DNA of 64,000 bases from Actinomycetota bacterium (GCA_014360645.1 JACIXD010000011.1:1-64000), one strand, 5' to 3'. Positions 20,520 through 35,703 are shown, counted from the stretch's first letter. Numbers and translations: made by a program. Notes: generated by a model from the sequence alone, not told the origin.

Positions 20520-21389
20520 TCATCGGCCCCCCTCCCCCCCAGCCGCCTTTTCAGGCTCCAGCGACCCAGAGCGACCATGGCCCTGGAAGCGGTCTCTCTC
20601 CTCCCCCCCGCAAGTCTTTCCGTCACGGCAGCAAGCGCCCAGCGGCACCACCATCTTTACGCCTTCACACGTCTCCAAAGCCACCTTTACGCCGTAGACC
20701 GTTTCCATGCTCTCCTCGTCGACGACCTCCGGCCCGCCGCAGGCGACCACGGAGCCCTCTTTCAGGAGGATGAACTTGTGGGAAAAACGCAGGGCGAGGT
20801 TGACGTCATGGATGGCCATCAAAGCCGCGATTCCCCTCTCCGCTACCTCCCTCTCCAGCGTCTCCATGACCTCGAGCTGATTCCCGAGGTCGAGGTTGCT
20901 GGTGGGCTCGTCCAGCAGCAGGAAGACCGGCTCCTGGGCCAGCGCCCTGGCGATCACCACCTTCTGCAGCTCTCCCCCGCTGAGCTCGTCCAGGTGACGC
21001 AGGGCGAGGTGCTCAAGCTTGAGCCGAGTTATCACCTCCTCCACCACCCTGAGGTCACCGGTACCCGCCGCCCAGGCGATATGCGGCCTGCGGCCCATGA
21101 GCACGGCGTCGAAGACGGTGAGCCTGCCGCCGGCGCCGTCCCTCTGGGCCACGTATCCCATGCGGCGCGCGACCTCCATGCGGCCAAGGCGCAATGCGTC
21201 CTCGCCCGAAAGGAACACCGCCCCATCACTTGGACGCAAGGCACCCAGGATGCATTTGAGCAGAGTGCTCTTACCCGCCCCGTTGTTTCCCAGAATGGAG
21301 CATATCTCGCCCCTTGCGATATCAAGAGAGACCGATTCCAACACCGTCCTCGCGCCGTAGCTGAAGGTAACGCCCTCGACCGCGAGCAT
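20520..21389 (-). CDS. FecE/BtuD-type ABC transporter ATPase
   Basis: A 289-residue importer ATPase: Walker A GNNGAGKST, signature LSGGELQKV, Walker B FLLLDEP, H-loop AIHDVNLA. It powers uptake of iron chelates, haem or cobalamin through the adjacent permease. The ATG overlaps the permease stop (ATGA), giving coupled translation. The C-terminal tail (after about residue 255) contains three Cys (ACCRDGKTCGG) and is longer than usual; it may bind metal or be irrelevant. Confidence 0.92.
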   Translation of the reverse strand: MLAVEGVTFSYGARTVLESVSLDIARGEICSILGNNGAGKSTLLKCILGALRPSDGAVFLSGEDALRLGRMEVARRMGYVAQRDGAGGRLTVFDAVLMGRRPHIAWAAGTGDLRVVEEVITRLKLEHLALRHLDELSGGELQKVVIARALAQEPVFLLLDEPTSNLDLGNQLEVMETLEREVAERGIAALMAIHDVNLALRFSHKFILLKEGSVVACGGPEVVDEESMETVYGVKVALETCEGVKMVVPLGACCRDGKTCGGEERDRFQGHGRSGSLEPEKAAGGEGGR

Positions 21390-22462
21390 CAGGCCCTCCT
21401 GTATCCCTTGGCCAGCAGGTAGAGGAAAAGTGGAGCCCCCATGAAGGAGGTGATCGCTCCCACCGGGAGCACCACCGGGGCGACCACCGTCCTGCTCAAG
21501 GTATCCGATGCCAGGAGCAGCAATGCCCCCATGGCGCACGCGCCGGGTAGGAGGAAGCGGTAGTCGCTCCCGATGGCACGCCGCACGAGGTGCGGGCTCA
21601 CCAGCCCCACGAAGGCGATGATTCCCAGGAAAGACACCGCTACCGCGGTTATCAGCGAGGCAAGGAACATCCCGGCCATGCGCGTGCGCGCCACGTCCAC
21701 CCCCAAGCTCCTGGCGGTATCGTCTCCGCTCACCAGGGCATTGTAGTTCCAGCGGTTGAGGATGAAATAGGCGGCGGCGGGAAGGGTGATTGCGGACATG
21801 ATTCCCAGTTCCTGCCATGATGCCCTCCCTATGTCTCCGAAGGTCCAGAAGACGATGGAGGCCACCTGTACGTCGCTGGCGAAGTACTGCGTGATCACCG
21901 TGCCGGCGGAGAAAAGCGACCCGAAGGCTATACCCGCCAGGACCATGGCCTCTGGCGATATTCCCTTGTACCTCGCCAGCAGGAGCACGGCCAGGGTGGC
22001 GGAGATGGCGCCGGCGAAGGCGGCAACGGTGACCAGGTAGGGGTTCCTGATGAGCACCGCGTCGGCGCCGGTGCTCTGCACGCTCCCCGCTCCCATGGCC
22101 ACGATGGCAAGGGCTGCGCCGAAGGCGGCCCCCTGGGACACGCCTAGGGTGTAGTCGGAGGCAAGGGGGTTGAGGAGCACGCCCTGCATGACGCAGCCCG
22201 CCACCGAAAGACCGATGCCGGCCACCACGGCCGCCAGCACGCGTACCAGCCTTATGTGGATGACGATCTGCGCGGTTCTTTGGTCCGCCTGTCCGGTGAG
22301 TGCCCGCAGCACCTGCAGGGGAGAGACGTCGGCTGAACCCAGGGTCATGGCGAACACGCCCAGCGCGAGGGTCGCCGCGACCAGCGCGGCCATGAAAAGA
22401 GTCCTGCGCCTTGTGTAGGAAAGGTAGGCGCTCTTCACCGACTCCGCGGTCGCCGTATCCAC
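21389..22462 (-). CDS. FecCD/BtuC-type ABC transporter permease
   Basis: A 357-residue polytopic permease with about ten membrane helices and the family hallmark GCVMQGVLLNPLASDYTLGV near the N-terminal third. It also has VGLVSPHLVRRAIG, the coupling-helix region that docks on the ATPase. It pairs as a homodimer with the ATPase downstream and the binding lipoprotein upstream. Substrate class: siderophore, haem or corrinoid; sequence alone does not decide. Confidence 0.92.
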   Translation of the reverse strand: MDTATAESVKSAYLSYTRRRTLFMAALVAATLALGVFAMTLGSADVSPLQVLRALTGQADQRTAQIVIHIRLVRVLAAVVAGIGLSVAGCVMQGVLLNPLASDYTLGVSQGAAFGAALAIVAMGAGSVQSTGADAVLIRNPYLVTVAAFAGAISATLAVLLLARYKGISPEAMVLAGIAFGSLFSAGTVITQYFASDVQVASIVFWTFGDIGRASWQELGIMSAITLPAAAYFILNRWNYNALVSGDDTARSLGVDVARTRMAGMFLASLITAVAVSFLGIIAFVGLVSPHLVRRAIGSDYRFLLPGACAMGALLLLASDTLSRTVVAPVVLPVGAITSFMGAPLFLYLLAKGYRRA

Positions 22463-22532
22463 CGATCTTCACCCTGCCCTATCCGCGCTCACGCCGTCTT
22501 TCTCCGTTCCATCCACCGCCGTGTTCCTCTCT

Positions 22533-23654
22533 CTAGAGGGAACCCAGGTCGATCTTCTTGAAGCCCCCGAAATCGGCGGCCATGCGTTCGTATAAAGGCT
22601 TGCCGAGCAGGAATGCGAATATCTCGTCCGCCTTTTTCGCGGGGTCGATGTCCTCGAAGGCCTGCGGGAACATGGTCTTGCCCATGAAGTAAGCGTCGGC
22701 GATGGCGGTGTCGATGTTGGTGGTGTAAAAGTTGTACGGCAGATAGCCGAAGAGCCTGCCCTCCTTCACCGCCCTGAGGGTGTTGTAGAAGCCGGGGTTG
22801 CCTGAATAATCCTCCATAACCATCTGCAGTCCGGACTCGTCGATGAAGATAATGTCGGGATCCCAGGCTATCAACTGCTCCTTGTCGATCATCACGCTGC
22901 CCTTGCTGCCCGTCTCGTCCACCACGTTGACGGCTCCGACGGAGGCCAGGGGCGGGAAATTACCCTGGGTGCTCTCGATGCCGTGGGTCCCCTTCATGCC
23001 TATGCCGCCAACATAAACACGCGGTTTCTCCCCTTCCGGGATATCCGCGGTGCGCTTCCTGAGGTCGTCGCGGCAGCCCTTGATATACTCGATCGCCTCG
23101 TCAGCCCTTTTCTCCTCCCCGGTGATCTCCCCGATCAGGGAGAGGGAATCGAAAACCTCCTGGTCGAAGGTGCCGAGCTGACCGTAGCTCAGCACCACCA
23201 CGGGGATGCCCGTTTTCGACTGCAACTCGTCAGCCTTGGCCGCGTCCACCAGGTAGGCCACGAATATGACGTCCGGATCCACGTTTAACAGCATCTCGGG
23301 GTCTGGGGTGGAATCCGGCCCTCCCTGTCCGATCACCGGGAGGTCGAGCAGTTCGGGATGGGCGATGATGTACGGCCTGCCAGTGGACCACTGCTTCTCC
23401 ATGTTCTCGATGCCCACCACCTTGTCTGCGCAACCCGTATAACAGACCAGGCGCAGGGCACCGGGACCGATGGCCGCGACTCTCTGCGCAGGCGCGGTCA
23501 CCTCGACTTCGCGACCCGCAAGGTCGTTTATCACCTTGATCTCCGTCCCTGAAGCCTTTTTTTCTCCACCCTCGCAGCCGCAGCTGAAGAGCGCCAGTGC
23601 GGCGAGAACGGCCGCCGTCAGAAAGACGAGGGTCGTGGCATGTCTCTTCTTCAT
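22533..23654 (-). CDS. FecB/BtuF-type substrate-binding lipoprotein
   Basis: About 373 residues from ATG 23654 (AAAGGAGAGGAAGAG upstream). Lipoprotein signal: MKKRH, hydrophobic core, then LALFSCGC with the lipid-anchored Cys. The mature part opens with VINDLAGREVEVTAPAQRV, the standard start of periplasmic-binding proteins for siderophores/B12, and has two lobes (AYLVDAAKADELQSKTGI; MIDKEQLIAWDPDIIFID). It captures the substrate outside the membrane and hands it to the permease. No ligand-specific residues can be called by eye. Confidence 0.9.
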   Translation of the reverse strand: MKKRHATTLVFLTAAVLAALALFSCGCEGGEKKASGTEIKVINDLAGREVEVTAPAQRVAAIGPGALRLVCYTGCADKVVGIENMEKQWSTGRPYIIAHPELLDLPVIGQGGPDSTPDPEMLLNVDPDVIFVAYLVDAAKADELQSKTGIPVVVLSYGQLGTFDQEVFDSLSLIGEITGEEKRADEAIEYIKGCRDDLRKRTADIPEGEKPRVYVGGIGMKGTHGIESTQGNFPPLASVGAVNVVDETGSKGSVMIDKEQLIAWDPDIIFIDESGLQMVMEDYSGNPGFYNTLRAVKEGRLFGYLPYNFYTTNIDTAIADAYFMGKTMFPQAFEDIDPAKKADEIFAFLLGKPLYERMAADFGGFKKIDLGSL

Positions 23655-24126
23655 CTCTTCCTCTCCTTTCCCGTCAGTCTCGCTCCTGTTCCCTTTACCG
23701 CTCACGACTGCCATGAGCGCTATGTCTTCTCTCCCGTGTCTTCCGCCGCTCGTGCTCACTTTCGGCATTTGCCGACCCTTTGGTGGGATCCATCCCGCTC
23801 TTCCGGTCCCGGGGATGGATCATGCGGGTATCGAAAATGCCGCGTCTTCCCGTTCCTGGCGCGGGCGGATAAATATTGCCTCCGCCCTCCACGGCGTTTC
23901 GCCTCCCCAGCCTGCGCCTCTGGCCGGTGTTCTTCCCGCTATCGCGTTTCTTCCCCCTTTCCCGCACGGAGAGATGACGTCACGCCCCCACACCAAGACT
24001 TTGGGCATCCGTCTCACCTCCGCTCTTTACGCCCTGAATAAAGGTGAGGGCCGTCCATGGACAGCCCACGCACGGCCCCCGTCATGCATGAGAAAGGCTC
24101 CAGGCCTTATCTCCGTTTCTTCCACC
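23655..24126. other. Long spacer inside the methyltransferase–transporter operon
   Basis: The spacer is about 470 bases. A near-palindrome around 24050-24068 (GGCCGTCCATGGACAGCC on the plus strand) lies just downstream of the methyltransferase stop and could end or attenuate its transcript. A 65-codon minus-strand frame (23820-24017, beginning near MPKVLVWGRDV) is present but has no recognisable family; I do not call it a gene. Confidence 0.4.
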
Positions 24127-25723: not shown

Positions 25724-27031
25724 TCACGCGGCATCTTCTTTCCTGTTGCGCCACGGGCGGCGGCGTGAGAGCCACCAGGACAGGGGAACGAGGAGCGCGA
25801 CCGCGGCGGCCGCGGCCAGAAGCAGGACCGGGACCCCACCCTTCTCCTCCTCGGCCTTTCTGCCGGCCGCTTCGACTTCCCCTTTTTCCCCCTCCCCGCC
25901 TCCGCTCCCTTCCTCCGCCGGGAGTTCTTCTTCCGGGACGGTGCCCTCGGCCGCCTCCGCCCCCTCTCCGGCCCGGCCTTCTTCCCCCGCGGCTGCTTCT
26001 CCCGCCTCCCCCCTGCCGCCGCCCGCCGAATCGGCGTTGCTCCTTCCGCCATTGCCCGGCGCGGACTGCTCGCCTCCCCCGGAGGGCGAAGAAGGCCGGA
26101 AGGCGGCCACGGGAAAAGGTTTGCCGGCGAGGGCGCAGACCGCGTAAGAGGTGGTCCACACCGGGTTCATATCCCTGCCCCTCATCCAAGAGAAGCTCCC
26201 GTCCGCTCCCTGCATGGACCGCAGGAAAGAGAGGGGGGTGTTGCCTCCTTTTGACCACGCGCTCCCTCCGGGATCCTGCCCCACCGCGATGATGGCCTGC
26301 ACGCACCAGGAGGTGGCGGCGCTGTCCGATGCGCCGGACTGGAAGGAAAAACCTCCGTCCTGGTTCTGGACGGCGTGCAGGTGGGAGAGCGCGGAGGTGA
26401 TGGCGGGGTCGCCGGCGTCCACCCCCGCCGCCCTCAGGGCCATGATGGACGCGGCGGTCATATCCGGGTTGCTCGCCGCCCCCGGGCTGTTGCCCCAACC
26501 CCCGTCCGGATTCTGCGCCCCGCGGTGCCACTGCACCGCCCCCGCCGGCACGGCCATCCCCGCCGCGCGGTACGCCAGGATCCCGAAGGCGTTGGAGTTC
26601 ACCGCGTCGCCGATGTTTCCCGCCGCGCCCTGAAAGGACTGCACCCTGGCCACCAGGTCCATCCCCGCGAAGGAGCGCGGGTCCTCTCCCGCGGCGGCCA
26701 CCGCGAGCAGGGTGCGCTGGTAATCGGTCACGCTGCGCCAGTTTCCGGACTGCGTGGCCAGAAAATCGAGGGGAGATTTTCCGTTTTTGCTGACCCCGCG
26801 CACGTCCACTCCCGCGGCGGCCAGAGCCATGATGCACCAGGCGGTGGTGGCGTCCTGCCCCGTATCGCCCCGTCCGGGCTCGCGGAAGCCGCCGTCTGCG
26901 GCCTGGTTGGAGAGTATATAGGAGATTCCCTCGGAGGTGCCCGCGCGCGCGTCGTTCCCCGCCCCCCAAACGGCAAGCAAGAGCAGCGGCGCCACGAGAG
27001 TTGCTGTCACTATTTTCCATCTACACGCCAA
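25724..27031 (-). CDS. Secreted, membrane-anchored alpha/alpha-toroid protein (transcobalamin alpha-domain-like)
   Basis: About 435 residues. Signal peptide (ATLVAPLLLLAVWGAGNDARA), then ~300 residues of squalene-cyclase/prenyltransferase-type repeats, each with a QxxDGG turn (NQAADGGF, QNPDGGWG, QNQDGGFSF, QGADGSFSW). A Glu/Gly/Ala-rich stalk and a C-terminal transmembrane helix with an RRRPWRNRK anchor follow. Animal intrinsic factor and transcobalamin have exactly this toroid as their alpha domain. I chose TTG 27031, with GGAGGTG six bases upstream. It is the last gene of the riboswitch operon. It lacks the DDxD or DCTAE motifs expected of a terpene cyclase, so a binding role is more likely than catalysis. 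Confidence 0.8.
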   Translation of the reverse strand: MACRWKIVTATLVAPLLLLAVWGAGNDARAGTSEGISYILSNQAADGGFREPGRGDTGQDATTAWCIMALAAAGVDVRGVSKNGKSPLDFLATQSGNWRSVTDYQRTLLAVAAAGEDPRSFAGMDLVARVQSFQGAAGNIGDAVNSNAFGILAYRAAGMAVPAGAVQWHRGAQNPDGGWGNSPGAASNPDMTAASIMALRAAGVDAGDPAITSALSHLHAVQNQDGGFSFQSGASDSAATSWCVQAIIAVGQDPGGSAWSKGGNTPLSFLRSMQGADGSFSWMRGRDMNPVWTTSYAVCALAGKPFPVAAFRPSSPSGGGEQSAPGNGGRSNADSAGGGRGEAGEAAAGEEGRAGEGAEAAEGTVPEEELPAEEGSGGGEGEKGEVEAAGRKAEEEKGGVPVLLLAAAAAVALLVPLSWWLSRRRPWRNRKEDAA

Positions 27032-27136
27032 CTTCACCACCTCCAAACGGCCGCCATACGGTCATCATGTCCTCGAAAAGAGCACGTTCCCGGCGGCCCC
27101 GGCGTCGACCCGTCCCGGTTCCTTCCGTGAGGGCCC

Positions 27137-27259
27137 TCTCCCTTTTTCGCGTCCGCGGGACGGGTCATGCCATCTCCGCTCTCGACGACACACGGCGCCA
27201 TTCCTTCCTCCTCTGTTTTTTTTCACCTCGGTTTTCCCTTTTTCGCGTCCGCGGGACTG
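27137..27259. repeat. Direct repeat overlapping the 3' end of the ECF S gene
   Basis: A unit of about 23 bases centred on TTTTTCGCGTCCGCGGGAC occurs at about 27140 and again at about 27237, 97 bases apart. The second copy encodes the last residues of the ECF S component, so the first looks like a duplicated 3' end. Confidence 0.55.
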
Positions 27260-28134
27260 ACCTCTTCGCCGCCCTCCGCCTCCACCCGTGCGTCGCTCCT
27301 TTTTCCCTCTGCCCCTTCAAGGACGAGGAGGTCCGCGGCGCGCGGGACATCCGCGCCCTCCGCCTCCACCTCGAAGGTCACGGAGAAACGCGCGTGGAAA
27401 CGCGAGAGCATGGTGATCACCGGCCGCGCCAGCACCGTGGAAAAGAGGAGATTCCCGGCGGCGTGGAAGAAGTCGAACCAGAAGCTGGAAACGCACGCCG
27501 CCACGTAGCTGCGCAGGGTGAGGGGATGGACGAAGGAGAGCCAGAACCAGAGGTTCATGAACCAACCGAAGATAAAGCCCCAGACCGTGCATGTCGCCCG
27601 CACCGCCCGCAGACGGGCCCTCTCGCTCCGCGGCCATGCGGTGAGCGCTCCCGCGGCTCCCGCCCCTCCCCATGCCAGCATCTGCCATGGGGTCCAGGGG
27701 CCGTGGCCGAGAAAGAGGTTGCTCAGGAGAGCGATGAGCGCGCCGGTCATGAAGCCCGTCTCCGCGCCGAATACGTGTCCGGCGGCCAGGGCGATGAAGG
27801 TGGCCGGCTGCACGCCGGGGACGGCCGCGAAGAGCACCCTTCCCGCCGCGCCCGCCGCCGCAAGCGCGCCCACCACGGCAACCTCTCGCGCGCCGTACCC
27901 CCCCTCCTCGAAACGGATGAAGAGCACGGCGAGCAGGATCGCAGCGAGCAGCAGCGAGTCCAACGACCACCCGTCGAAGGGCGGGACTCCCTTCACGCCC
28001 AGGAACACCAGGGCAGCGGCCAGGCACAGCAGGGCATACCTCGCGTATCTCGCGAGAACATGCCGCCCACCGCGTCCCGGCGCCGCGGCATCATTCCCTG
28101 CGCGCCTCATGCCTGCCGTTCTTATCCTGCCCAT
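27223..28134 (-). CDS. ECF transporter S component (substrate-binding membrane subunit)
   Basis: About 303 residues with six or so membrane helices. The central stretch ATFIALAAGHVFGAETGF...LSNLFLGHGPWTPWQML is the pattern of ECF S components of the ThiT/CbrT-like superfamily (a re-entrant G-rich loop and the GxGPWTPWQ motif). The last ~60 residues form a charged cytoplasmic tail, longer than usual. It determines transporter specificity. Family name alone does not give the ligand, but the cobalamin riboswitch upstream of the operon points to a corrinoid. ATG overlaps the ATPase stop. Confidence 0.87.
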   Translation of the reverse strand: MGRIRTAGMRRAGNDAAAPGRGGRHVLARYARYALLCLAAALVFLGVKGVPPFDGWSLDSLLLAAILLAVLFIRFEEGGYGAREVAVVGALAAAGAAGRVLFAAVPGVQPATFIALAAGHVFGAETGFMTGALIALLSNLFLGHGPWTPWQMLAWGGAGAAGALTAWPRSERARLRAVRATCTVWGFIFGWFMNLWFWLSFVHPLTLRSYVAACVSSFWFDFFHAAGNLLFSTVLARPVITMLSRFHARFSVTFEVEAEGADVPRAADLLVLEGAEGKRSDARVEAEGGEEVSPADAKKGKPR

Positions 28135-29999
28135 AAGCGGCTCAACTTCTTCAGGGCGGTGACCGCCTCATCTTCCCGCAGCGCCTGCACGCCGAAGCCG
28201 TTCAGCAGACGGTTGACCTGAGGAGAAAAAAAGAGGGATTCCCCCAGGACATCGGGGGTGGATCCCGCGGCGACGATGGTGCCGTTGCCCATGATCGCGG
28301 CCTTTTCCGCCAGCGAGGCCGCGAACTCCACGTCGTGCGTCACCACCAGCGCCGTGCCGCCCGATGCGCGATAGGCGCGCAGTGCCTCCACCACCTCGCG
28401 CTTGTTGCGGTGGTCCAAGCCGCGCGTGGGCTCGTCCATCACCAGCAGCTCCGGCAGGGGCGGGAGCATGGCCGAGGCCAGGAGCACCTTCTCCCGTTCC
28501 CCGGTGCTGAGGTCGAAGGGATTCCTCCGTGCCAGGTGCGCGACCTCCATGCGCTCCAACTGCTCGTCCACGGCCTTCTCGGCCTCCCCGGAGGCGTACC
28601 CTCTCAGGCGCATGGTGCGCAGCAGCTCCTCGCGCACCGTGGGACACACGAAATAGGAACCGGGGTTCTGGGGGCAGTACCCCAGGCGCGAGGAGAGGGT
28701 CGGAAGGCGTTCCCGGGAAGGGGACTCCCCGAACAGCGCAACCCTGCCGCGCGAGGGGTCCAGGAGGCCGAGGAGGCAGCGCAGGAGCGTGCTCTTCCCG
28801 GCCCCGTTCTCTCCCAGGAGGGCCATGGCGTCGCCCGTACGCAGGGAGAGGTCCAGGCCCTTCAGGGCCTCGAGTCCCCCCGGATAGATCAGCCAGAGAC
28901 CGCGGGCGAGCAGCAGCTCCGCCGCCCCGCGGCCGTTCACGGCTTCCTCCATGCTCCTCGGACGTCGGCGCCTCGCGCGGTCTCCCGCGGCATCCCCCGG
29001 GGCGCTCGCCCCTCCGCGGAGCACGTCCTTGAAATGATCGGGCGGGAGAAGCCGCGGCGAGCTACCGGAGCCGGCGGGTGAAGGTGTGCGCTCTCCTCCT
29101 CCGCCTCCCGCCGCCCACGGCACCCCGGAGGCAGAGGAGCAGGCGTAACCGCTCACACCCGCATGCAGCGCGCCGCTTTCCAGCATCCGGGCCAGGGCCC
29201 TTCTCCCCTCCACCACCGTCAACGGCACTTCCCTCCATCCCGCGCGCGCGAACACCCTGGACACGGGAGGGATGAAGTCGTCGTCGTGTGCGGCGCACCA
29301 CGCCGCCGCCTCGCGGGGTCCGCCGTCGAAGAGCACGCGGCCCCCCTCCATGTACAGCACGCGCGTGGCGTGGTGGTAGCAGCGCTCCAGGCGGTGCTCG
29401 CACATCACCACCGTGGTCCCCGCCTCCTCGTGCAGGCGCCGCACCAGCGTCAACAGGTCCTCGGCGCTGACGGGATCGAGCTGTGATGTGGGCTCGTCGA
29501 GGGCCAGCACCAGGGGATGCATGGCCATCACCGAGGCCAGCACCGTCTTCTGCTTTTCTCCCCCCGAGAGCTCAGGGATGAAGGAGCGGCGCAGGCGCGA
29601 CAGCCCCAGCCCCACCAGCATCTCCTCCGTCCTCTTACTGATGACCGCGGGCGGCAGTCCCGCGTTCCGCATGCCGAAGGCGATCTCTCCCTCCACGCTG
29701 GTGCTGACCAGCTGCCCCTCCGCGTCCTGGAACACCATGCCCACCACCGCGGCGAGCTCACGGGTCTCGCACCTGAAGGCATCGCGGCCGGCCACGGTGA
29801 CCCTGCCTTTTATCCTCCCTCCGTGGAAATGCGGGACCAACCCGTTGAGCAGACGCAAGAGGGTGGTCTTTCCGCAACCCGTGGGACCGGTGAGGAGGAT
29901 GAACTCCCCTCGCTCCACCTCGAGGTTGACCTCCCTGAGGGCGGGGTCCTCCTCCCCCGGGTACCAGTAGCTCAGATCCGCGATCTCCACCAGTGCCAT
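28122..29999 (-). CDS. ecfA: Fused double ATPase of an ECF transporter (EcfA-EcfA')
   Basis: About 625 residues holding two complete ABC ATPases in one chain. The first has Walker A GPTGCGKTT, signature ELSGGEKQK and VLALDEPTSQLD. The second has GENGAGKST, DLSTGEREK and LLVMDEPTRGLD. They are joined by a ~90-residue low-complexity linker. Most ECF transporters use two separate ATPase genes; single-chain fusions are known. ATG 29999 sits inside the end of ecfT (28-bp overlap), so translation is coupled. It powers the S and T components encoded on either side. Confidence 0.92.
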   Translation of the reverse strand: MALVEIADLSYWYPGEEDPALREVNLEVERGEFILLTGPTGCGKTTLLRLLNGLVPHFHGGRIKGRVTVAGRDAFRCETRELAAVVGMVFQDAEGQLVSTSVEGEIAFGMRNAGLPPAVISKRTEEMLVGLGLSRLRRSFIPELSGGEKQKTVLASVMAMHPLVLALDEPTSQLDPVSAEDLLTLVRRLHEEAGTTVVMCEHRLERCYHHATRVLYMEGGRVLFDGGPREAAAWCAAHDDDFIPPVSRVFARAGWREVPLTVVEGRRALARMLESGALHAGVSGYACSSASGVPWAAGGGGGERTPSPAGSGSSPRLLPPDHFKDVLRGGASAPGDAAGDRARRRRPRSMEEAVNGRGAAELLLARGLWLIYPGGLEALKGLDLSLRTGDAMALLGENGAGKSTLLRCLLGLLDPSRGRVALFGESPSRERLPTLSSRLGYCPQNPGSYFVCPTVREELLRTMRLRGYASGEAEKAVDEQLERMEVAHLARRNPFDLSTGEREKVLLASAMLPPLPELLVMDEPTRGLDHRNKREVVEALRAYRASGGTALVVTHDVEFAASLAEKAAIMGNGTIVAAGSTPDVLGESLFFSPQVNRLLNGFGVQALREDEAVTALKKLSRLWAG

Positions 30000-30892
30000 T
30001 TTTTCCAGCTCCCACAGACGGCGAGTATGGCGGCGAATGCGGCGGTCAGCAGAGCCCATGACGCGAGGTCGGCCTCCGTGAACGGATTGGCAGGGGATGG
30101 AAAGAAACGGTACCCGCCCCCACCCCGCAGAGAGGCCAGGACCACGGAGCCCGTGACGGTAAGCGAGACACCCGCGGCCACGAGGTCCCGGGGGCGGAGG
30201 CGGCGGCCCCCTGCGCGCGTCCGCCCCCGGGACCCGAAGCCCCTGGCGCTCATGGACTCCGCGATGGAGGCGGCGCGGTCGAGAGCGCCCTGAAAGAGCG
30301 AGAGCAGCAAAGGTAGGTGCGCCCTGGCCCTCGCCAGCCGCCCGCCGCCCCGCAGAAGGTCGCCGCGCGCAAGCTGTGCGTCCCTCATCTCCCCCGCCTC
30401 CACCACCATGCTCGGGTAAAGGCGCACCGCTAGCGCCGCGGAGAGGGAAGAGCGGAATGAGAGCCTGGAAAGCAGTTCCAGGAGGTCATCCGGGTTCACC
30501 GCCAGGGTCACGAGGGAAAACCCCGCCACCACCGTGAAGAGGCGGACGCCGGCGGCCAGGCCGTAGAGCAATGCCTCCAGGGTCAGGTTCAGCTTCCCCC
30601 AGAGGGGGAAGGAGGGTCCGTAAACGAGCACGTGCTCGCCCGCGCTGTTCACCAGGGGGTTTATCAGGGCCACCAGCAGTCCCATGTACGCGGCGGCGCG
30701 CAGGAGAGCCCTACCCTCCCTCAACACCTCCGCCTGCCAGAGCAGGGCGAGCACCGAAACGCACAAGGTGGCGGTGTAGAGGGGGTTTTCCAGCACCAGC
30801 GCAGCGGTCACCGCCGAGGCGGCCAGCGCCAGCGCCGCCAGGGGGTGCAGGCCGTGGAGGAGGGTGTCCTTGTAACGGTAAACTGGCAGCAT
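29972..30892 (-). CDS. ecfT: ECF transporter T component (EcfT/CbiQ family)
   Basis: About 306 residues from ATG 30892, just after the stop of the DUF4430 gene, with AAGGGAGTTGAAGGG upstream. It has five or more membrane helices (LAALALAASAVTAAL, AAAYMGLLVALINPLV) and a cytoplasmic coupling region with two short helices (ARGDLLRGGGRLARAR; ESMSARGFGSRGR). These correspond to the A-R-G-type motifs by which T components grip the ATPases. It scaffolds the S component and links ATP hydrolysis to its toppling. Confidence 0.9.
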   Translation of the reverse strand: MLPVYRYKDTLLHGLHPLAALALAASAVTAALVLENPLYTATLCVSVLALLWQAEVLREGRALLRAAAYMGLLVALINPLVNSAGEHVLVYGPSFPLWGKLNLTLEALLYGLAAGVRLFTVVAGFSLVTLAVNPDDLLELLSRLSFRSSLSAALAVRLYPSMVVEAGEMRDAQLARGDLLRGGGRLARARAHLPLLLSLFQGALDRAASIAESMSARGFGSRGRTRAGGRRLRPRDLVAAGVSLTVTGSVVLASLRGGGGYRFFPSPANPFTEADLASWALLTAAFAAILAVCGSWKKWHWWRSRI

Positions 30893-30896
30893 CCCT

Positions 30897-31889
30897 TCAA
30901 CTCCCTTCCGCCGGCAGGAGCATAGTATTGCCTCCCGCGAACACCACCACCGCGGGGACCGGTCGGGGCTCGCGCAGGTCTTCATCCAGGAAATGGTCGA
31001 GGAGGGCACGCAGCCCCGCCGCGTCCGAGCCGGCGAGCACGAGCGCCGACGCCCCCTCACCGAGCCTCAACCCCAGGCACTGGGCCAGGCCCACCGATCC
31101 CACCGCGCTTCCGGCCGCTTTTCCATCCCCGTCCAGGATGCGTATCTCCCCGCCATCCCAGTAGGCGAACATACCCGCGAGGGCGCGGCTTTCACATGCT
31201 TCCCTGGCCATGTCGTTTACCGCCAGTTCCTCCCACGTGCCCGCCAGCACGGCATATTCCCCCCTTCCGGGCCTCCACTCCGCGTCCAGCTCCACGACGC
31301 CGCAGGGAGCCCGCGTGCGCGAGGCCAGAAATCCCGCCACCCGCTCCCCCTCCTCCCATGACCCGCGGGCGCAGGCCACCGTAACCCTCTCCGGGGCCCC
31401 GGCATAGCCGTGCACGAAGGGCTCGGGGAAACATCCCGCCAGCGCGGGCGTGAACATGGCATACTCCCAGGAATGGAAGTCGAAGACCAGCCAGTCGCCC
31501 TCGCGCACCTCGTAAGCGCCAGCGCCCACCTCAGCCATCTGGCCGTTGACGTAGAAGAACCAGTCCTTCTTTCTGCCCGCTCCGCCCTCGTACTGCGAGG
31601 CGATGCCGTCCACGGCCTGGATGAAGCCTCCTCCGTAGGCCGTCTCCACCTCCGCCACCGCCCGCAGCGCCTCCATGGCGCTGGAGCCCTCCCTCACCCC
31701 CAGGCTTACGTCCTTCAGGGTCTCTTTCCCGAAATCCGCGCACACCGTGATTCTTATCGCGGTCTTTCCTTCCCGCGCGTTCCACGGCATGAAGGCACAG
31801 CCCCGCACCAGGAAGAAAGCGGTCAGGATGACCAGCGCCGCCGCGGCGCCGCGCCATGCCGCTCGCGCCGGCCTTTCCCTCTTGTTCAT
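30897..31889 (-). CDS. Membrane-anchored DUF4430 protein (transcobalamin beta-domain-like)
   Basis: About 330 residues from ATG 31889 (GGGAGG six bases upstream). An N-terminal membrane anchor (AALVILTAFFLVRG) is followed by a DUF4430 domain. This starts at ITVCADFGKETLKD and includes GSSAMEALRA, GGFIQAVDGIA, KDWFFYVNGQMAEVGAG and REGDWLVFDFHSW. DUF4430 is the beta domain that closes over cobalamin in intrinsic factor and transcobalamin. A further ~200 residues carry no family I recognise. It sits between the propeller protein and ecfT in the riboswitch operon, so it is the likely external cap that delivers corrinoid to the ECF S subunit. Confidence 0.87.
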   Translation of the reverse strand: MNKRERPARAAWRGAAAALVILTAFFLVRGCAFMPWNAREGKTAIRITVCADFGKETLKDVSLGVREGSSAMEALRAVAEVETAYGGGFIQAVDGIASQYEGGAGRKKDWFFYVNGQMAEVGAGAYEVREGDWLVFDFHSWEYAMFTPALAGCFPEPFVHGYAGAPERVTVACARGSWEEGERVAGFLASRTRAPCGVVELDAEWRPGRGEYAVLAGTWEELAVNDMAREACESRALAGMFAYWDGGEIRILDGDGKAAGSAVGSVGLAQCLGLRLGEGASALVLAGSDAAGLRALLDHFLDEDLREPRPVPAVVVFAGGNTMLLPAEGS

Positions 31890-32377
31890 GCTATGCCTCC
31901 CGCAAAGGCCTCGACGACCAGGAAAGGCGAGTCCTTCGCCGATCCCGGCCCGCTTTACGTCTCTTTCCGGCGGCGGCAGGGTACCGCCGTCTCCGGTCCG
32001 CGGCGCCCGCCGGCGCCTTCCCCGCTGCGCGTCCCGCTCCATCTGGCAAAAAATACCTTGTACGGGAAAACCGGGAAGGCGGCATCCGTCCTCATACGCC
32101 TTCCCGCTCGGCCGCCGCCCTTTACCGGCGCGCTTCCCCGTCTCCCGCTTCTTGCCCTCCGGACAAGCGGTCGGGCGGGGAGGCTCTATGCCTCCCCGCC
32201 CCGCCGGCCGGGGCCGGCTTGGTCGACCGCGAGGTCAAGTGGGACCGCTGACCCGGAAGATCCCGGCGGCCCGCCTCGCATCGGGGCATGCGAGGACTCC
32301 GTCTCCCGCCCTCAGATCCCGTCCCGCATGTCCTGAGGCGAGCCGCACGAACTCGTTGTCGTCTGCCTGTTCTCCTC
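31890..32377. other. Intra-operon spacer with a strong GC hairpin
   Basis: No gene is supported in 488 bases. A perfect 12-bp inverted repeat GGGCGGGGAGGC with a 5-base loop spans 32173-32201. There is no T-run on the minus strand, so it is not an intrinsic terminator. It could be a processing or stability element separating the propeller gene from the transporter genes. Confidence 0.55.
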
Positions 32378-34987
32378 CTAATAGATATCGCTCAGGGTGG
32401 CGGCCCTGGTGCAGTGACCGCCGGTCCAGTTGTGGGCGCCCAGTCCCTGGTAGTCGAAATACATGGCTCTCTCCACCACTACCCCCCGGTCGGAGGTGAC
32501 GGCATAGGCACGCTCCACCGGCTCAGAGCTGGAAAGCGGGATGGTGAAGCGGCGGCCGGCCGGGACCGTGTATTCCTCCGCCTTGCCGTCCCCGAAGAGC
32601 GGGGTCACCTTTACCGCCGCATCCTCCTTGCCGGGGTTGGATATGCATATGTACTGGTCGAAATGGGCGTCGGTGTATCCCTCCGCGAGACACCAGTAAT
32701 TGCTGGGAATGGATGCCCCCACGACGCAGGAGCCTCCGTCCCGGGCGCCGCGGTAGTTGAAATACACGGGCCTTTCCGCCAGCACCGGCCGCGCCGACCT
32801 CACCGTCATCCCCAGCTCCCTGTTCTCCCCGGCCTCGAGGTTGACGCTCAAGGTACGCCGGGTGTGCGCCTCCACCCTGTACCTCTCCGTCCGGGGCTGC
32901 CCGTCCTGGTAGAGATAGGTGACGTCGACATCCGCGTCCTCGTCGCCGGGGTTGGCCAGGCACAGCCACTCCTCGAAGCCCTCGCCGGTGTAGCCCTCGG
33001 CGAAATACCAGCTCGTGCTGGGACTCGGCGCCCCCGGCACGCAATGACCTCCCGTCCATCCATGGGCTCCCATTCCCTGGTAGGAGAAGTACATGGGGCG
33101 CTCCGCCACCACGGGGCGGTCGCTCTCCACGGCAATGGAGACGTCCCTGCCCTCCCCCGCCTCGCGGTTGACGCTGAAGGTGACGCGGCGGTTTCCGGGC
33201 ACGTAGTATTCCTTCTGCAGCGGCTCTCCCTGGGGGTAGATGTAGGAGACCCTGACGGTGGCCAGGCGGTCGCCGAAGTTGGCCAGGCACAGCCACTCCT
33301 CGAAGCCCTCGCCGGTGTAGCCCTCGGCGAAATACCACCTGGTGAGGGGCTCGTCAGCGCCCACCACGCAGTGGCCTCCCGTCCAGCCGTGGGACCCCAT
33401 TCCCTGGTAGGAGAAGTACACGGGGCGCTCCGCCACCACGGGGCGGTCGGAGACCACCTTTATGGACACCTCCACGTCCGATCCCACCGCGCCCTTGACG
33501 TCCACGGTGGTGCGGGTGCCCGCCGTCACCTCGTAGTCCACCGTCTTGGGGTCCCTCTCCCCGTTGAAGAGGTAGGTGACCCTCACGGTGGCGTCGTCCT
33601 CCGGGTCCGTTCCGGGATTGGCCAGGCACAGCCACTCCTCGAAGCCCTCGCCGGTGTAGCCCTCGGCGAAATACCAGTCGTAGGAGGAGGGCCTGTATTC
33701 CTCGTAGGCGTAGAGGCGGCCGTCGGCGGTGGTATAGACCAGGCCGTTGGCCACCACGGGATCGCCGCCGCCCTTCTCCTGCACGTACCACAGCTCGCTG
33801 CCCGTATAGGCGTCCACGGCCCCCACGCCTTTGTTGTGCGCCCAGGCCGTGGTATCGAAACTCCCCGCGTAGAGGTAACCCGTGGCGGAGGATAGCACGC
33901 AGTTGCCGTTGTAGGCGCCCCAGTTGGGGTTGTCCCACACCAGCTCGCCCGTGTCCCGGTCGAAGGCATAGAAGTGGTTGCCCCCCACGGAGTAATCGTT
34001 GCCGCACACGAAAAGGGTGCCGCTGTTGGCGTCGATGAGGGGGGTGCCCGAGGAGCCCCAGATGGACTGCTTCCACACCTGAACGGCCTCGTCGCCTTTA
34101 TCCTCCACCCGGTAGAGGCTGCTCATGGGACCGCCATATGCGAAGTCGCTGAAGTAGAGATCGCCGTCCTCGAGGGCGATGGAGCCGGCGACGTCGAAGT
34201 CCGCCTTGAACTCCCATTTCTTTACAGGAGACGCCCCGGACACGTCCAGGCAGTGCACCTTGCCGTTCACCGGGCTTCCGAAGGCGGCGTGCTGGGGCAG
34301 ATACAGTCTGTTCCCGGCATCGTCCACCCCCGGAGCGCCGATGGCCGAGGAGCCGGGGTCGAGGTCGTAGCCCCAAAGCACGGCGCCGCTGGCGGCGTCC
34401 AGCCCCAAGTACCTACCGTAGATGTAATCGCCCAGCACCACCACCCTGGTGCCCGCCGCGTTGGAGTACATCACCGGGTCGCTGATGATCACGGAGTCGC
34501 CCATGGGAGCGCCGGCGGGGGTGATGTCGGCAGCCCAGAGCACGTTCCCGCCGTTCTGGGCGTCCAGGCAATAGACCCTCTTGCCGCAGCCGATATACAC
34601 GCGTCCCCGGTCATAGAGGGGCCGCGCCTTGGAGCCCATGCCGCCCGCCCACTCCAGGTCCTTCTGCCAGAGAAGGGAGCCGTCCGCGGCATCCAGGGCC
34701 ACCACGCTGCTGTCCTCCCCCGGGGGCATCCAGGGATCGTTCCCGGCGAAGAGGTAGGCCACGCCGTCCACGATACAAGGTCCGGTGCCGTCCTTGATGC
34801 GGTAATCGGCGCTCTCGAAGACCGGCGCCGCGCTCTGAGCCGCCGCGACCTCTCCCAGGGAAGCTCGCGGCGCGAAAGGCGCGCCCGGGAGCGCCAGCGC
34901 CAGGGCCACCGCCAGCGTCGCCGCGCCCAACAGCCACGATCTTCCTGCCCCGCAGAAAATCCTTCCGCTTCCGTTTCCCGCGACCAT
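32378..34987 (-). CDS. Secreted PQQ-like beta-propeller with four ~105-residue surface repeats
   Basis: 869 residues; ATG after AAGGAGGTAAGGA. Signal peptide (LLGAATLAVALALALPGA). Residues ~50-430 form a PQQ-type propeller with repeated blades (VALDAADGSLLWQKD, LGLDAASGAVLWGYD, YAFDRDTGELVWDN, VDAYTGSELWYV). Four copies of a domain follow, beginning WYFAEGYTGEGFEEWLCLA and ending RPVVAERPVYFSYQG...GWTGGHC; the fourth is divergent. There is no C-terminal anchor. It is the first gene behind the cobalamin riboswitch. Bacteroides BtuG is a propeller that binds B12, so a corrinoid-capture role is plausible but is inference. The repeat resembles DUF5719-type surface modules. Confidence 0.8.
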   Translation of the reverse strand: MVAGNGSGRIFCGAGRSWLLGAATLAVALALALPGAPFAPRASLGEVAAAQSAAPVFESADYRIKDGTGPCIVDGVAYLFAGNDPWMPPGEDSSVVALDAADGSLLWQKDLEWAGGMGSKARPLYDRGRVYIGCGKRVYCLDAQNGGNVLWAADITPAGAPMGDSVIISDPVMYSNAAGTRVVVLGDYIYGRYLGLDAASGAVLWGYDLDPGSSAIGAPGVDDAGNRLYLPQHAAFGSPVNGKVHCLDVSGASPVKKWEFKADFDVAGSIALEDGDLYFSDFAYGGPMSSLYRVEDKGDEAVQVWKQSIWGSSGTPLIDANSGTLFVCGNDYSVGGNHFYAFDRDTGELVWDNPNWGAYNGNCVLSSATGYLYAGSFDTTAWAHNKGVGAVDAYTGSELWYVQEKGGGDPVVANGLVYTTADGRLYAYEEYRPSSYDWYFAEGYTGEGFEEWLCLANPGTDPEDDATVRVTYLFNGERDPKTVDYEVTAGTRTTVDVKGAVGSDVEVSIKVVSDRPVVAERPVYFSYQGMGSHGWTGGHCVVGADEPLTRWYFAEGYTGEGFEEWLCLANFGDRLATVRVSYIYPQGEPLQKEYYVPGNRRVTFSVNREAGEGRDVSIAVESDRPVVAERPMYFSYQGMGAHGWTGGHCVPGAPSPSTSWYFAEGYTGEGFEEWLCLANPGDEDADVDVTYLYQDGQPRTERYRVEAHTRRTLSVNLEAGENRELGMTVRSARPVLAERPVYFNYRGARDGGSCVVGASIPSNYWCLAEGYTDAHFDQYICISNPGKEDAAVKVTPLFGDGKAEEYTVPAGRRFTIPLSSSEPVERAYAVTSDRGVVVERAMYFDYQGLGAHNWTGGHCTRAATLSDIY

Positions 34988-35049
34988 TCCTTACCTCCTT
35001 CGGCTCCTTTCCTCCCCGCCGCCCGCCGTCGATCGCCGCCGCGGGAAAC

Positions 35050-35082
35050 AAAAATCTCCACTCTCGTCGCGAGAGAGGAGAT
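35050..35082 (-). terminator. Terminator (expression platform) of the cobalamin riboswitch
   Basis: Minus-strand hairpin ATCTCC...GGAGAT enclosing TCTCTCG/CGAGAG, followed by TTTTTG. It lies ~50 bases after the B12 box and ~65 before the propeller start codon, so the switch most likely works by transcription termination. Confidence 0.85.
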
Positions 35083-35130
35083 CTTATTTCCCGTCAGGTT
35101 CCCTCTGATGCGGAGAGCTTGCTGACTCCC

Positions 35131-35280
35131 GCCGGATAGGTCTTCTGACTCCCGGATCTTCGTTCCGCCCCTCCTTCCCGGCCTGAGCCAGTGGATCACT
35201 GGGGCTTCGCTCCCCGGTCACAGCGGCGCTACCGTGTCGGATTCACACCGACTTCCCTTTTATCCCTTTCGGGATCCGGC
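35131..35280 (-). promoter_or_regulatory. Cobalamin riboswitch
   Basis: Read on the minus strand, the region carries the conserved core in order. P1 is GCCGGAT (35274-35280) paired with ATCCGGC (35131-35137). Between them come AAGGGAAGTCGGTGTGAATCC, CGGTAGCGCCGCTGTGACCG, GGGGAGCGAAGCCCC, CCACTGG, GCCGGGAAGG, and the B12 box AGTCAGAAGACCTATC. These are the adenosyl/methylcobalamin aptamer hallmarks. It controls the propeller–DUF4430–ECF–toroid operon, repressing it when corrinoid is plentiful. Confidence 0.96.
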
Positions 35281-35703
35281 AGGCATGTTCTTCTCTTTTC
35301 AAATGTCCCGAACGTCACCATGCTAGCACGCCTGTCAAGGGGGGGTCAAAATCACGCCTTTCGCTTCGTATGCCAGACGTAATTTCATGGGTCGCTGATC
35401 GAGCATTCTGGAGATCGCCCCTTTCCTCTTGTCGAACTTGCCTGGCTTGTCCGGATGACGGGGTGGTCCCTCGGTCCATCCCTCAACTCGAGAGCGCCTA
35501 CCGGGACGATGCGGCTTACCCTTGCGGAAAAAGAGATCTCGGGGTCTCTTGAAGATGAGCGCCTTCAACCATACGAGAAGCACCGACGCACGGCCGGCAG
35601 CCGGGCCGGTTCGACCGCCCTGGCCGAGGGATGGCGGTGCTGGCGGAGGGCTATGTAAGATGAAGGCGTCCGCTTTGCATTCAGGTCAAAGGAGGACGAG
35701 CAG
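35281..35703. other. Divergent intergenic region (riboswitch promoter and HD-gene promoter)
   Basis: No gene is supported. It should contain the minus-strand promoter for the B12-regulated operon just right of 35280 and a plus-strand promoter for the HD protein. I could not pick unambiguous hexamers in either. Confidence 0.4.

Follow-up and report, generated by a model that had tools for sequence, protein, structure and literature searches.

A cobalamin riboswitch-headed ECF importer operon of an actinobacterium with two surface proteins resembling the halves of transcobalamin

In this study, we describe a six-gene operon of an Actinomycetota bacterium (GCA_014360645.1, JACIXD010000011.1:1-64000; the whole stretch of 64,000 nucleotides that was analysed is called the window below) which very probably serves the B12-controlled import of corrinoids. 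Behind a cobalamin riboswitch, the operon encodes a secreted beta-propeller protein, the complete set of CbrT-type ECF transporter components and two membrane-anchored proteins, one carrying a DUF4430 domain and one an alpha/alpha toroid. As an explanation of the operon as a whole, we favour, with good though not overwhelming confidence, a riboswitch-controlled high-affinity scavenging system for corrinoids with split-transcobalamin capture.

The basic idea is already published as a prediction. Burroughs et al. 2007 (PMC1796856) described the bacterial DUF4430-type (SLBB) domain, its fusions to toroids in both orders and its operons with CbiO and CbiQ in hosts without B12 synthesis; they predicted B12 scavenging and proposed a transfer to animals. 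The window shares with these systems the domains, the neighbourhood of CbiO-like ATPase and CbiQ-like protein, the predicted role and a host lacking ring-synthesis genes. The 2007 systems are mostly toroid-SLBB fusions of Gram-positives, whereas the window has two chains, a propeller, a riboswitch and a CbrT-type S subunit, and its relatives include S-toroid fusions. New here are the link to CbrT and to the riboswitch, the split, propeller-bearing variant and the S-toroid fusions in ten genomes. The operon thus joins the transcobalamin-like prediction of 2007, the proof of cobalamin transport by CbrT of 2018 and control by a B12 riboswitch. In the open literature searched, we found neither binding or transport data for this operon type nor a description of S-toroid fusions. 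In a proteomics paper on Lacticaseibacillus rhamnosus, one protein is entered as "additional lipoprotein component of putative cobalamin ECF transporter" (PMC9963975); the entry indicates that annotators already tie lipoproteins to ECF-dependent B12 import.

Operon layout and riboswitch

Riboswitch and terminator are followed on the minus strand by the genes for the propeller, the DUF4430 protein, EcfT, EcfA-A', the S subunit and the toroid protein (Table 1). The starts of the DUF4430, EcfT and EcfA genes are corrected ones, the ORFs as listed having begun too far upstream. Gaps of approximately 490 nt between the propeller and DUF4430 genes and approximately 175 nt between the S and toroid genes leave space for internal promoters, so that we can only infer a single transcript for the operon.

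Table 1. Features of the riboswitch-headed operon and of a neighbouring importer (window positions)
Feature	Position	Strand	Evidence
Cobalamin riboswitch aptamer (RF00174)	35118-35294	minus	103.8 bits, E 6.7e-25, full model
Terminator-like hairpin and T-run, AAGATCTCCTCTCTCGCGACGAGAGTGGAGATTTTTG	~35047-35083	minus	fold and sequence, 3' of the aptamer
Secreted BamB/PQQ-type beta-propeller with four WYFAEGYT-type repeats (DUF5719-like)	32378-34987	minus	PQQ_2 E 8.8e-23, DUF5719 E 4.4e-15
Membrane-anchored DUF4430 protein (transcobalamin beta-domain-like) with C-terminal BcsB-like alpha/beta domain	30897-31889	minus	PF14478 E 2.6e-16
EcfT coupling protein, CbiQ family	29972-30892	minus	PF02361 E 8.3e-18
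Fused EcfA-EcfA' ATPase	28122-29999	minus	two ABC_tran stretches; TIGR04520 above cut-off
ECF S subunit, CbrT family	27223-28134	minus	homology to 6fnp chain A
Alpha/alpha-toroid protein (transcobalamin alpha-domain-like), signal peptide and C-terminal TM helix	25724-27046	minus	Prenyltrans E 1.9e-9
Second ABC importer (whole)	20520-23768	minus	
Second ABC importer, binding protein	22533-23768	minus	
Second ABC importer, permease	21389-22462	minus	
Second ABC importer, ATPase	inside 20520-22472	minus	

The covariance model of RF00174 scores the riboswitch at 103.8 bits against a gathering cut-off of 31.5, and our own riboswitch model R1 gives 140 bits on the aptamer. The hairpin and T-run behind the aptamer probably form the expression platform. 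The stretch 34985-35135, which holds this hairpin, has a folding z of -2.84; a simple terminator scan does not include the hairpin in its list. A riboswitch with terminator heading six genes on one strand, as claimed in the preliminary description, is borne out by RF00174, the domain profiles and the hairpin fold, and the same holds for B12 regulation of an ECF importer, in view of the riboswitch score and the EcfT, EcfA-A' and CbrT-like S proteins.

The six-gene order is kept in every locus of the class or family unbroken by a contig end, and a riboswitch is present in 17 of the 18 such loci having an intact 5' end (exception L014). As this order and the riboswitch are found again in other members of the class, chance does not explain the grouping. 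The close relatives that bear a name in the genome collection are Candidatus Solincola tengchongensis and Candidatus Geothermincola secundus, and the host is probably an actinobacterium from their group.

A scan with the S alignment across the genome collection revealed at least 593 relatives; the 80 best of them, which do not represent a random draw, were kept with their flanks. Most of these loci belong to Clostridia, Bacilli, Chloroflexota and Actinomycetota; some are from Thermoplasmatota. A cobalamin riboswitch heads the operon in 43 of these best 80 loci, 41 detected by R1 (38 with E < 1e-4, three weak) and two by Rfam. The loci without riboswitch are mostly 5'-truncated, archaeal or from Chloroflexota. 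Nine R1-negative loci were scanned against all Rfam families; the scan revealed the two additional cobalamin riboswitches and no thiamine or other riboswitch. A predominance of thiamine or other riboswitches, named beforehand as part of what would speak against the split transcobalamin, is therefore not what these loci display. A Guanidine-III riboswitch at L062:25-85 lies at the edge of the fetched region and is unconnected with the operon.

The ECF importer and the corrinoid metabolism of the host

CbrT-homologous S subunit, EcfT, EcfA and EcfA' are all encoded in the window. For the S subunit, phmmer gives a match to 6fnp chain A (ECF-CbrT) with E 1.2e-12, and the family profile one with E 1.1e-27. 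CbrT (ECF-CbrT, PDB 6FNP) is an experimentally proven transporter of cobalamin and cobinamide (PMC5997447). The ECF-CbrT transporter of Lactobacillus delbrueckii and that of the window have homologous S subunits and both contain EcfT and EcfA-A'; CbrT of L. delbrueckii uses an ECF module common to other S subunits, whereas the window encodes a dedicated module and extracellular partners in one operon (PDB 6FNP, PMC5997447).

Among 396 genomes of the phylum, DUF4430 is found in 77 and the strong S family in 73, as raw counts that ignore kinship. Both are present in 72 genomes, DUF4430 only in five, S only in one and neither in 318, again with kinship ignored. The strong S set is bounded by a gap in E-value between 2e-56 and 3e-30, and another 75 genomes, in which the match is weaker (E 3e-30 to 2e-5), were excluded from it. 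The preliminary description had put forward the co-occurrence with ECF genes and B12 riboswitches as a check; that of DUF4430 and the S family is near-perfect in the phylum genomes. Textbook ECF systems have no extracytoplasmic binding proteins.

The host genome encodes 22 B12-binding domains, and neither CbiC nor CbiD was found in its assembly (98% complete). This indicates that the host uses corrinoids and is probably unable to make the ring. Its only other cobalamin riboswitch lies on contig 14 (L069:6799-14574), ahead of cobU-cobT-cobS-cbiB-CobD-like and BtuF/BtuC-like genes. This riboswitch operon of cobUTS-cbiB and BtuFCD-like genes gives the host another, classical route to corrinoids, and the operon of the window is not the sole one. 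The window also contains a second ABC importer, of the BtuFCD/iron-siderophore type, which lies approximately 2 kb further downstream than the toroid gene and has no separate riboswitch (Table 1).

Surface proteins and the animal cobalamin carriers

Animal transcobalamin (TC), haptocorrin and intrinsic factor (IF) likewise consist of a toroid and a DUF4430-type beta-grasp domain. In the window, a transcobalamin-type DUF4430/SLBB beta-grasp domain is present according to PF14478 and fold search, and a toroid domain of transcobalamin type according to Pfam on the window protein and to the fold of the homologous toroid of a relative. The animal carriers are single soluble chains that are taken up via receptors, e.g. 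CD320 or cubilin, whereas the window has two genes for two membrane-anchored chains that would lead to an ECF transporter. The N-terminal helix of the DUF4430 protein and the C-terminal anchor of the toroid are predicted from hydrophobic stretches. A lipobox-like motif, in a loose pattern, is found in 25 of 68 solo DUF4430 ORFs of named relatives.

A Foldseek search with the AlphaFold2 model of the DUF4430 protein of the window (pLDDT 91.6) found haptocorrin and the beta domain of TC on its own (5no0, TMt 0.70). Further matches are to BcsB over approximately 290 columns with high rmsd, and these may arise from the C-terminal domain of the model. This C-terminal half (30897-31400, minus strand) is conserved family-wide, is without a Pfam model and appears BcsB-like, BcsB being a cellulose synthase subunit. 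It is an addition to the domains listed in the preliminary description.

By sequence, the DUF4430 profile found no TC or IF match in the PDB, and the toroid profile ranks PDB cyclases first, with its top scores to squalene-hopene cyclases. NPDM replaces DxDD in the toroid of the window and its nearest relatives, while a DxDD-like stretch is retained in some other relatives. The top NCBIfam match of the window toroid is the SCO2321 family membrane protein of Streptomyces (NF053823), yet with 89 bits it stays below the curated cut-off of 300. A toroid of SCO2321-family type stands alongside ECF and S genes in locus L075. Because sequence profiles missed TC and IF in the PDB, it is the fold, together with the published SLBB analysis, on which a kinship with the animal carriers is based.

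For the fold, a Chloroflexota relative (L111) is informative, which has a natural toroid-DUF4430 fusion of 413 residues. Its AlphaFold2 model (pLDDT 94.9, pTM 0.79) has transcobalamin, haptocorrin or intrinsic factor as all of its 15 best PDB matches, with both domains aligned and E 2e-12 to 6e-10, and the animal carriers outrank cyclases by fold. The bacterial fusion thereby matches the whole chain of the animal proteins. The ligand-free model and the holo carriers differ in the placement of the two domains (TM 0.38-0.45, rmsd approximately 23 A over both domains). When the alpha and beta domains of human TC are produced separately, they co-elute only with CNCbl (PMC5599065). As the model is free of ligand and the human domains meet only with B12, the mismatch in placement neither proves nor refutes a clamp.

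DUF4430 occurs in 67 and a toroid in 59 of the best 80 loci, and 57 have both. The two domains are joined in one ORF in 40 of the 80 named loci; the toroid comes first in 32 loci (e.g. Moorella, Desulfotomaculum), which is the order of the animal carriers, and DUF4430 in ten (e.g. Bacillus, Clostridium). DUF4430 without a toroid is found in ten named loci. Loci of the order DUF4430-T-A-S that have no toroid are mainly archaeal; they include the Thermoplasmatota/DHVE2 loci L103, L113, L128, L139, L141 and L156 (DUF4430-EcfT-EcfA-S), in which neither a toroid nor a riboswitch was found. Such loci, archaea included, indicate that a clamp is not obligatory.

Of the proposed split transcobalamin, the homology of both proteins to the carrier halves holds, given the fold, CbrT, the co-occurrence and the fusions; the joint clasping of a corrinoid is plausible, with a mismatched domain placement in the L111 model. 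From homology and fusions, it is likely that toroid and DUF4430 protein both contact the corrinoid. That they form a joint clamp on one corrinoid molecule is favoured by a narrow margin of our judgement.

The toroid has a further connection to the importer. S subunit and toroid share one reading frame in ten genomes, which fall into two family-level groups (L070, L071, L077, L078, L167-L172), and in L070, L071, L077 and L078 an intervening hydrophobic stretch would place the toroid outside. These in-frame fusions suggest a position of the toroid on the S subunit; for the separate toroid of the window, we regard docking on its S subunit as an even chance.

Proposed mechanism and alternatives

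Under scarcity of adenosylcobalamin, the riboswitch would permit transcription into the operon. The DUF4430 protein with its N-terminal anchor and the toroid protein with its C-terminal anchor would act as an extracellular split transcobalamin, in which the corrinoid would first be bound by the DUF4430 domain before the toroid closes over it. The toroid side would then pass the corrinoid to the S subunit beneath; this CbrT-type subunit, together with EcfT and EcfA-A', would bring cobalamin or cobinamide across the membrane. The propeller may be a class-specific secreted accessory, perhaps for initial capture or tethering. More tentatively, and with somewhat less than even odds in our view, the whole may be an ECF transporter with a two-piece extracellular capture device homologous to the animal carriers, in which the toroid is docked on S and the clamp, as it closes and opens, directly loads the importer; the animal carriers would then be a soluble offshoot. 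A split clamp, if true, would mean that bacteria have a natural equivalent of intrinsic factor made of two pieces that can be separated. How ECF importers obtain a vitamin that is both bulky and rare could then be explained in a way open to testing, and the animal B12 carriers would have a concrete relative among bacteria from which to trace their origin.

The main competitor of the joint clamp is a relay, in which the corrinoid is handed on without ever being held by both halves at once; DUF4430 protein, toroid and propeller would each bind it, or the S subunit, on their own. The separate, individually anchored chains of the window would suit such a relay, as would the ten named loci with DUF4430 and no toroid. 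The S-toroid fusions, which attach the toroid to the importer and not to DUF4430, point the same way, and the human TC beta domain in isolation binds CNCbl (PMC5599065). The toroid-DUF4430 fusions in both orders in half of the named loci favour joint action, as does the similarity of the L111 fusion model to TC and IF over the whole chain; we therefore consider the relay rather unlikely.

It is very improbable that the importer carries another B12-regulated substrate such as cobalt or a different tetrapyrrole. EcfT belongs to the CbiQ cobalt family, and cobalt importers are often under the control of B12 riboswitches. Staphylococcus lugdunensis is reported to have an ECF importer for heme (PMC7299338). 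Against this stand the match of the S subunit to CbrT, that of the surface proteins to cobalamin carriers and the little use of free cobalt to a host without corrin-ring genes. Least probable of all is that the toroid acts as a terpene-cyclase-like enzyme or belongs to the wall proteins and stands in the operon incidentally. This would fit the top sequence scores of its profile and the DxDD-like stretch kept in some relatives; it conflicts with a protein that is secreted, membrane-anchored and in many genomes fused to S or DUF4430, with NPDM in place of DxDD in the window and with the ranking of carriers over cyclases by fold.

Concerning the propeller, a strong orthologue is present in 23 of 31 genomes of the class, which are exactly the 23 with DUF4430. 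Bacteroides BtuG is likewise a secreted beta-propeller within a B12 uptake locus (PMC6143338). The propeller of the window differs from it in matching BamB/PQQ proteins by sequence and in having no outer-membrane BtuB partner. A relationship to BtuG was considered and rejected, the profile finding BamB and quinoprotein dehydrogenases and BtuG 3DSM not being among its matches. Binding of corrinoid by the propeller is doubtful. Its C-terminal part (32378-33680, minus strand) contains four repeats that start with W[YC][FL]AEGYT.
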